Positions 13,401 to 14,031 of a stretch of DNA of 14,031 nucleotides are shown here, piece after piece. Position numbers and translations under genes: made by a program. The notes under the pieces were generated by a model, which saw only the letters and a list, made by a program, of their open reading frames with translations, did not search any database and was not told where the DNA came from. Source of the DNA: an uncultured Elusimicrobia bacterium (GTDB lineage Bacteria; Elusimicrobiota; Elusimicrobia; Elusimicrobiales; Elusimicrobiaceae); the NCBI GenBank assembly GCA_947164805.1, contig CAMUXX010000009.1, forward strand, positions 1 through 14,031. Reading direction: 5' to 3'. The first letter of the stretch is position 1. Every line of letters begins with the position of its first letter.

Positions 13401-13431
13401 TTTACAAAACTCATTTAAAAAATGCTATACT
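13401..13431 (+). promoter_or_regulatory. Extended -10 promoter for the structured leader RNA
   Basis: TGC directly before TATACT (13426-13431) makes an extended -10. A -35-like TTTACA (13401) or TTACAA (13402) lies 19 or 18 bp upstream. The expected start of transcription is about 13438, just before the structured RNA. This is the best promoter in the window. Confidence 0.65.
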
Positions 13432-13437
13432 GTTAAA

Positions 13438-13690
13438 AACGAAGGAGTGTTTTTTAAATAATGTAAGCCATAAAAGGCTTAATACAACTTAATCTGTTTT
13501 TGGCTCCGAAAAGACGGAGAGTTAATAAAAATATTAACGAATATAGAAACCAAAAACAGTCGTGTAGGCACAAAGGAAGAGGACTAATTACCCTCTGACT
13601 TTGTGCTCAATGTTTATTATCTCAAGATAATGAACTACGGCTGTTATATTTTTGGTCTTCTATATTCCCAAAACATAATAGCCGTTTTTT
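13438..13690 (+). ncRNA. Structured leader RNA, candidate riboswitch-type attenuator or small RNA
   Basis: About 250 nt with its own promoter and terminator and no convincing reading frame. Helices in order: TAAGCC/GGCTTA (13464-13481). P1 CTGTTTTTGG (13494-13503) with CCAAAAACAG (13550-13559), closing a junction that holds CTCCG/CGGAG (13504-13519) and GTTAATA/TATTAAC (13521-13538) plus an 11-nt single strand (13539-13549). Then GCACAAAG/CTTTGTGC (13568-13606), with a tandem GA/GA internal loop and inner AGAGG/CCTCT. Then ATTATC-TCAA-GATAAT (13616-13631), and last the terminator hairpin. The strand 13539-13556 can also pair with the terminator's loop and inner arm (13649-13667), giving a competing fold. 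No clear promoter follows the terminator, so the exported-protein gene at 13745 probably depends on read-through. I recognise no known riboswitch, tmRNA, 6S or RNase P signature. Confidence 0.7.
13637..13690 (+). terminator. Intrinsic terminator inside the leader
   Basis: ACGGCTGTTAT (13637-13647) pairs with ATAATAGCCGT (13675-13685), one G-U pair included. An inner TTTTGG/CCAAAA stem (13650-13655/13668-13673) and a 12-nt loop complete the hairpin, and T13685-13690 forms the U tract. It lies 54 bp before the next gene's start. Confidence 0.88.
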
Positions 13691-13705
13691 ATTTGGCTAA
13701 AAAGA

Positions 13706-13737
13706 TTTGTGGAAACACAAAAATAAAAAATAAGGAG
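13706..13737 (+). promoter_or_regulatory. GNRA-capped hairpin followed by ribosome binding site
   Basis: TTTGTG-GAAA-CACAAA (13706-13721) is a 6-bp stem with a GAAA tetraloop. Ten bases later comes AAGGAG (13732-13737), 7 bases before the ATG at 13745. The stem strands are the same sequences as one helix of the upstream leader (13569-13575 and 13599-13605), so the two could exchange partners. Confidence 0.5.
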
Positions 13738-13744
13738 ATGTATT

Positions 13745-14031
13745 ATGAAAAAATGGTTGTTGGCAGTATTAGTAGTTGTTTCTCTCCACTCTTTATCTTA
13801 TGCTGATGGGTGGGGTTTTGCAATAAAATCCGGTATAGGCCAAAATGATCCTAAAACCGCAAAGAAACTTTGGGATGTATATGGAGGAACACTAACCAAA
13901 GCCCCAGGAATTTTTGCAGTAGAAGGCTTTTATGAAATAGAAGTTCCCCCCTCTGAAGGGGATATATTAGAAAAGGTAAACACCTTTGGTATAAGTCTAG
14001 GGTATAATGCTTATGGAAAAAATAAACTAGA
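13745..14031 (+). CDS. Exported, probably outer-membrane beta-barrel protein, 3' end off the window
   Basis: Ninety-five codons are visible before the right edge. The N-terminus is a signal peptide: Lys2-Lys3, hydrophobic WLLAVLVVVSLHSL, and a likely cleavage after SYA at residue 20. The mature start DGWGFAIKSGIGQND, then alternating aromatic and polar stretches such as FAVEGFYEIEV and TFGISLGYNAYGKNKL, look like beta strands of an outer-membrane barrel. The family cannot be named from this fragment. A strong AAGGAG lies 7 bases before the ATG. Expression probably depends on read-through of the terminator in the structured leader upstream. Confidence 0.75.
   Translation, partial: MKKWLLAVLVVVSLHSLSYADGWGFAIKSGIGQNDPKTAKKLWDVYGGTLTKAPGIFAVEGFYEIEVPPSEGDILEKVNTFGISLGYNAYGKNKL

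Follow-up and report, generated by a model that had tools for sequence, protein, structure and literature searches.

Near its 3' end, the window, that is, the whole stretch of 14,031 nucleotides from an uncultured Elusimicrobia bacterium analysed here, carries a member of a family of structured RNAs that is real and is not described in the sources searched. Judging from sequence comparison and folding, we put at roughly 85% the probability that this RNA is a cis-acting bistable transcription attenuator. Comparison of the copies and computation reveal its helices, the mutual exclusion of two pairings, a near balance of their energies, its position before genes and a palindromic loop in hairpin P4; from these features we infer regulated termination itself. 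The original prediction had left the choice between a riboswitch or attenuator and a free small RNA. The former is now strongly supported by the alternative pairing, the terminator, the RNA's own promoter and the open reading frame (ORF) that follows at a median distance of 44 nt, and the latter is disfavoured, with the proviso that a terminated leader could still act in trans.

Architecture of the window copy

Sequence reading and folding place the window copy at about 13423-13690 of the + strand, where its parts follow one another in the order extended -10 element, P0, A, P2, P3, B with a variable extension, P4, P5, C with a variable extension, and D (Table 1). The region 13430-13700 folds at -88.5 kcal/mol, compared with -48.0 kcal/mol in shuffles (z = -9.3; none of 200 shuffles is as low). 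A 10-bp closing stem, 13494-13503 with 13550-13559, encloses two hairpins, P4 contains GA/GA mismatches, P5 is capped by UCAA, and the next gene starts 54 nt 3' of the terminator end. Thus, the promoter, the structure of about 250 nt, the terminator and the gene 54 bp downstream (ATG at 13745) that had been predicted are all borne out, the promoter also by the family-wide enrichment of -10 elements described below. The closed three-way junction and the terminator that had been claimed as the structure are likewise present; however, they make up only one of two competing states, and for the window copy the lowest computed energy belongs to the second, in which 13539-13563 is paired with 13637-13667 (the B-C state).

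Table 1. Parts of the leader RNA and of the gene behind it, in positions of the window
Feature	Position	Strand	Basis
Extended -10 promoter element TGCTATACT	13423-13431	+	Sequence reading; -10 elements enriched family-wide before strand A
AAGGAG near the 5' end	13442-13447	+	Sequence reading
ATG-TAA start-stop	13461-13466	+	Sequence reading
Optional 5' hairpin P0 (UAAGCC/GGCUUA)	13464-13481	+	Fold; similar hairpins by eye in many, not all, copies
Strand A (CUGUUUUUGG), partner of B in the terminating state	13494-13503	+	Motif position across copies; two-sided A-B changes
Hairpin P2	13504-13519	+	Two-sided changes in 7/7 pairs; 82% of cells paired
Hairpin P3	13521-13538	+	Two-sided changes in 8/8 pairs; 74.5% of cells paired
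Variable B extension, partner of the C extension	13539-13548	+	Outer B-C helix, two-sided changes in 9/9 pairs
Strand B (CCAAAAACAGUCGU), common to both states	13550-13563	+	Covariation and alternative folds
Hairpin P4	13567-13607	+	Two-sided changes in 16/16 pairs
Palindrome UAAUUA within the 9-nt P4 loop (2 nt + 6 nt + 1 nt)	13585-13590	+	Palindromic loop in 156/160 copies
Hairpin P5, UCAA loop	13612-13635	+	Two-sided changes in 10/10 pairs
Strand C, terminator 5' arm and antiterminator 3' arm	13637-13656	+	Covariation and alternative folds
C extension / terminator loop, partner of the B extension	13657-13667	+	Covariation; alternative fold
Strand D, terminator 3' arm and T run ending at 13690	13668-13690	+	C-D: two-sided changes in 12/18 pairs, 90.8% of cells paired, 77/89 copies
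Ribosome-binding site AAGGAG of the downstream gene	13732-13737	+	Sequence reading
Putative controlled gene (ATG 13745, truncated at the contig end); product related to an outer-membrane beta-barrel protein	13745-14029	+	37% identity to L024 protein

Promoter, terminator tail and start-stop

The case for the promoter rests on the enrichment of -10 elements across the family. Among the 96 copies with enough upstream sequence, an exact TATAAT occurs 15-110 nt before strand A in 44, compared with 4 of 96 control stretches, and TGnTAnnnT before strand A in 51, compared with 8. Of 152 copies, 135 have a good -10 element; 52 of these have it no more than 35 nt from A and 83 at a greater distance, classes that loosely fit forms without and with P0. 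A generic scan for promoters and terminators, with a terminator loop limit of 3-8 nt, listed neither TGCTATACT nor the window terminator, and its promoter-like sites numbered 3 as against 2.5 in shuffles. A T tail follows the 3' arm in 151 of 160 copies, the remaining nine lacking one by regular expression.

The AAGGAG that had been noted as leading only to an ATG-TAA is indeed there in the window; it is incidental and not a feature of the family, given that AGGAG followed by ATG-stop occurs in only 12 of 152 copies, and the start-stop ORF was accordingly rejected as a conserved element. The presence of both motifs in the window could suggest that translation of this minimal AUG-stop ORF controls attenuation, an idea that we find scarcely credible in view of that count and of the small space left for it in the 52 of 135 copies whose best -10 element is no more than 35 nt from A.

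Two mutually exclusive folds

The helices of the B-C state (B-C, P4 and P5) show, in a plain MAFFT alignment of the first 22 copies, two-sided changes in 36 of 45 pairs, with 89.6% of the cells paired; none of 500 shuffles reaches the observed values, and structures slid along the alignment are 37-46% paired. The model-fitted alignment A2 (95 rows, with six weak opposite-strand matches included in the counts) has two-sided changes in 42 of the 45 pairs. For the terminator C-D, plain MAFFT alignment of 77 of 89 copies, leaving out the 12 for which the extraction by regular expression failed, gives 12 of 18 pairs with such changes and 90.8% of cells paired, and for A-B, P2 and P3, aligned in the same way for 85 of the 89 copies, 18 of 25 pairs (3/10, 7/7 and 8/8). 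Neither 500 shuffles nor sliding the structure gave values as high in either of these two alignments, which, like the state energies below, are built from copies cut by regular expression that favours conserved ends of A, B, C and D, with the outermost pairs partly preselected; most of the two-sided changes fall in inner pairs. The covariation of A-B is thin because this helix is nearly invariant, with 96-99% of cells paired and 3 of 10 pairs changed on both sides; matched changes in stem length and letters occur in the single copies L017, L067 and L089. A count of strand A positions, made independently of the regular-expression extraction, shows that 121 of 159 copies have the exact 10-letter strand 20-105 nt ahead of the core and that 141 have it with at most one mismatch, compared with 0 of 159 in the downstream control.

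A-B excludes B-C, and B-C excludes C-D. The sequence comparison thus supports two mutually exclusive pairings, such that B would pair either with A, in which case the C-D terminator can form, or with C, in which case the terminator is blocked. Against bistability it can be argued that the need for B to match both A and C can itself produce two similar folds. Under the attenuator reading, transcription would start just upstream and B would first pair with A, closing P2 and P3; as C emerges, the B-C helix, enclosing P4 and P5, would compete with A-B, and once D emerges, the C-D terminator would compete with B-C. Should A-B and C-D win, the RNA would end before the gene; should B-C win, the polymerase would read on.

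Energy balance

In the window, the B-C state is computed at -84.8 kcal/mol and A-B with C-D at -80.6 kcal/mol, and folding length by length shows A-B by position 13562 and B-C by 13646. The difference (B-C minus A-B with C-D) for 75 of 89 copies, the 14 others being dropped when a strand was missed by the regular expression, has a median of +2.4 kcal/mol and a range of -14.5 to +12.9, with 54 copies within 5 kcal/mol; the free minimum is one of the two states in 71 of the 75. When D is left out, B-C is favoured in 66 of 75 copies (median -3.2). When D is included, B-C is favoured in 16, among them the window, and not in the other 59, so that there is no uniform default state. On these model energies, most copies would be tipped into one state or the other by a factor whose binding contributes a few kcal/mol. 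This deciding factor may be a ligand or a protein on the conserved P4/P5 three-way junction, or else dimerisation through the P4 loop; an ON switch appears the more likely, because most of the conserved unpaired letters are in the P4/P5 part.

Relation to known RNA families

A comparison of the window with 4227 families of Rfam 15 yielded no match at the gathering threshold, and the only matches at gathering score in 20 other loci fall on tRNA and tmRNA genes that lie away from the leader. For the window region, low-threshold scans returned nine matches, the best at E 0.16 and all far below their gathering scores; three loci gave nothing up to E 0.05. The covariance models of the c-di-GMP-I and c-di-GMP-II riboswitches, which were among all the Rfam models run on the window and the 20 other loci, had no match. 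In its mutually exclusive terminator and antiterminator, which share one strand, the RNA is similar to T-box and other leaders of this kind; unlike the T-box, it has no Rfam match, and neither a specifier stem nor the T-box sequence is seen by eye. The open-licence literature searched yielded no description of the family, most subscription papers being outside that scope. The original prediction that the RNA carries no consensus of a known class therefore stands, and among the checks proposed with it, the Rfam search gave no family match and the collection of homologues revealed conservation and many two-sided changes.

Distribution and copy number

A DNA search finds 16 matching places in the window's own genome and many more in relatives. 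With the model R1, which covers the B-to-C core, and the best 150 or fewer candidates scored per genome, there are at E 0.001 27 matches in the own genome, 47 in G014, 45 in G034 and 125 in G072, a genome of 1.7 Mb. Copies with at least 40 bits number 25 in the own genome, which is incomplete, and 41, 43 and 125 in the other three; the matches left out below 40 bits (2, 6, 2 and 0, respectively) include one opposite-strand echo and two contig-end pieces. All 125 copies in G072 are full-length matches, at 45-117 bits.

Of the 90 genomes of the bacterial family, 79 have matches (best 38 or fewer candidates scored per genome), all within two genera, and a deeper search of 28 mostly low-copy genomes of that family (best 122 or fewer candidates scored) gives 0-5 matches each at E 0.01. 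Across the phylum, with the best 10 or fewer candidates scored, matches at E 1e-4 occur in 90 of 340 genomes, 78 from this family and 12 from one other, and the rest of the 340 yielded no match outside those two families at that threshold. An exact pattern run on 84,980 species genomes hits 21 stretches, all titled Elusimicrobium, Elusimicrobiaceae, Elusimicrobia, Elusimicrobiota or Candidatus Avelusimicrobium; the exact pattern misses variants, and the taxon range of these stretches therefore sets no wider absence. Several of the titles name rumen, rectum or abomasum, and the carriers are Elusimicrobiota mostly from animal guts.

Copies of the RNA lie near contig ends in the window and in L002, L004, L005, L006 and L075, which suggests that assembly breaks at these copies and that fragmented genomes contain more of them than counted. 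The leaders L040, L042, L080 and L084 look alike by eye across two genera and have terminators with extra letters before the T run; L040, L042 and L080 precede a same-looking protein, that of L042 matching Pfam HSDR_N_2 (type I restriction N terminus). Lateral transfer is a possible source of this likeness.

Could the repeats then be DNA elements, namely mobile repeats or recombination sites scattering with pilin cassettes? The range of copy number from 0 to 125, the patchy spread and the several copies near contig ends would be compatible with such an origin. We nevertheless regard it as very improbable in view of the two-sided changes in alternative RNA helices, the fixed orientation of promoter and terminator, the longer matches within the own genome that are only about 67-73% alike, and the absence of the exact pattern from viral contigs.

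Downstream genes

Of 169 copies, 167 are followed by an ORF on the same strand and two have less than 300 nt of contig left; the distance from terminator to start ranges from 17 to 316 nt around the median of 44 nt, exceeding 140 nt in 15 of the 167; this ORF search had no random control. Among the 160 distinct cores of the 169 copies, 99 precede a prepilin gene, as assigned by motif and for L002, L004, L010 and L016 by hand, 59 precede some other ORF, and in 2 the contig ends before any ORF. Prepilin genes follow all 49 examined copies of the 125 in G072 and 17 of 23 examined copies in G014. Pfam comparison of 42 of the 59 other ORFs gives six TPR proteins, five family-2 glycosyltransferases and four outer-membrane beta-barrel proteins, along with single matches to LicD, GT8, NAD kinase and others. 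The fragment of the window gene itself has no Pfam match; its product is 37% identical over 84 aa to the L024 protein of another genus, which matches Pfam OMP_b-brl and whose gene is also preceded by a copy of the RNA. A small protein with similar N termini recurs behind the leaders L005, L006, L020, L022, L171, L176 and L178; six of these seven were among the 42 ORFs compared with Pfam, a comparison that yielded six TPR proteins.

A family of free trans-acting small RNAs, with neighbouring genes incidental, would be expected to have its own promoter and terminator, and the self-complementary loop described below would suit pairing in trans. We hold it improbable, given the short gap to a same-strand ORF in most copies, the prepilin genes behind every examined copy in G072, and the conservation of an antiterminator pairing that has no evident use in a free RNA. 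As an attenuator, the leader may coordinate a large regulon of pilins and other genes; as the downstream genes are mixed, they may not all answer to one common signal.

All 90 genomes of the bacterial family, including those of genera that lack the RNA, match N_methyl, and the largest number of first-look prepilin candidates in a single genome is 257. That copy number simply follows prepilin number was rejected: G026 has 238 first-look candidates and five RNA matches. When the best 80 candidates per genome were scored, G018 and G023 had at least 76 and at least 70 prepilin matches, respectively, and no RNA match.

Palindromic loop of P4

The apical loop of P4 contains a 6-nt palindrome in 129 of 160 copies (mean of 500 shuffles 13.8, maximum 26) and one of at least 4 nt in 156 (shuffle mean 73, maximum 92), compared with 6-nt palindromes in 2 of 118 control P5 loops, the same as in shuffles; these counts come from related copies and hence do not represent independent events. 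The commonest types are UAAUUA (73), UUAUAA (34), GAUC (22), UCAUGA (12) and UUGCAA (7), and the most frequent arrangement, seen in 91 of 160, places two letters before a six-letter palindrome and one behind it. Most palindromes, 142, are centred on AU; GC forms the centre of 10, of which one (GGCC) is doubtful, CG that of 3 and UA that of 1. In loops with a central AU, positions 2 and 5 match by Watson-Crick pairing in 149 of 151, all four combinations occurring (shuffle mean 56). Several types coexist within a genome (in G072, 18 UUAUAA, 15 UAAUUA and others), and a tree of palindrome types with 55 changes, built on short sequences, can be taken as evidence of several changes only. Self-complementarity of the loop is thus, by comparison of the copies, itself conserved across several sequences.

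A partner in cis was rejected, no second palindrome of the same type being enriched within the leader: a further UAAUUA occurs in 7 of 73 leaders with a UAAUUA loop, compared with 10 of 76 with other palindromes, and a further UUAUAA in 9 of 34 leaders with a UUAUAA loop, compared with 55 of 115 others. Because neighbouring letters of the loop cannot pair within one molecule, the constraint would lie either in two copies pairing with each other or in some feature of the DNA duplex, and RNA kissing fits better because the sequence changes while self-complementarity stays. The palindromes therefore point to predicted kissing-loop RNA dimers. Isolated loop duplexes are computed at -0.4 to -5.2 kcal/mol, and the weakness of the A+U loops (-0.4 and -0.6) counts against strong dimers.

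The dimerization initiation site of HIV-1, as a review describes it, is a six-nucleotide palindrome in an apical loop with flanking unpaired letters (PMC7357161). The P4 loop resembles this site and other palindromic kissing loops in having a six-nucleotide palindrome with unpaired flanks; it differs in that it is bacterial, recurs in many leaders per genome and comes in several palindrome types, mostly A+U-only and weak, and in that dimers are here only predicted. A kissing-loop interaction has also been proposed for the guanidine-II riboswitch (PMC9094411); there two hairpins of one RNA kiss, in contrast to the present leaders, in which no second loop palindrome is enriched.

What could tip the balance

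Two ways of filling in the deciding factor lie within the attenuator reading, and their likelihoods overlap with its own. To a small-molecule riboswitch, with the ligand at the P4/P5 or the P2/P3 junction and the palindromic loop in another or a structural role, we give a little less than even odds. The expression platform is riboswitch-like, junction letters are conserved (GAGU..CAC or GAAU..UAC in 51 of 89 copies), and c-di-GMP enzymes are possible makers of a signal, GGDEF domains being present in all 12 genomes tested; on the other side, no Rfam aptamer matches, and the loops of P2 and P3 are heterogeneous. A rough hairpin finder detects GNRNA in 37 of 154 P2 loops and GNRA in 47 of 147 P3 loops, frequent and not general, and a single shared loop motif was rejected. 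GGDEF is unspecific, occurring also in G018-G021 and G033, which have no RNA match; as a pointer to c-di-GMP it is uninformative, and c-di-GMP, although a possible signal, draws no support from it.

In Geobacter, c-di-GMP-I and cGAMP riboswitches (GEMM) occur in multiple copies and regulate pilin-type genes. Like these, the RNAs described here would be cis-acting leaders, with a gene set resembling that of multi-copy second-messenger riboswitches; unlike them, they match no Rfam model at gathering score, differ in size and helices, and reach up to 125 copies.

A protein antiterminator or RNA chaperone that binds the leader and sets the balance is a clearly less probable way of completing the attenuator; it would accord with a shared leader on a large gene set and with the long conserved hairpins, yet nothing in the analysis points to a candidate protein.

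A further possibility, which on the sequence evidence we consider unlikely, is that leaders sense one another: P4 loops come in about ten types, nascent leaders and leaders already terminated would kiss in trans when of the same type, and dimerisation would shift the balance between B-C and C-D. If true, many pilin and other genes would fall into several groups, each defined by its loop type, and the whole would form a self-sensing network made of RNA alone, with no metabolite involved. Functional RNA oligomers are, according to the review cited above, rarely observed in nature (PMC7357161); the conserved, sequence-free self-complementarity of the loop makes the idea of functional RNA homodimers in bacteria directly testable.

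A structured leader of 200-250 nt in 125 copies suggests, for a genome as small as the 1.7 Mb of G072, an unusually large RNA-based regulon, and the leader family provides a handle on the control of the very large prepilin repertoires of these Elusimicrobiota.
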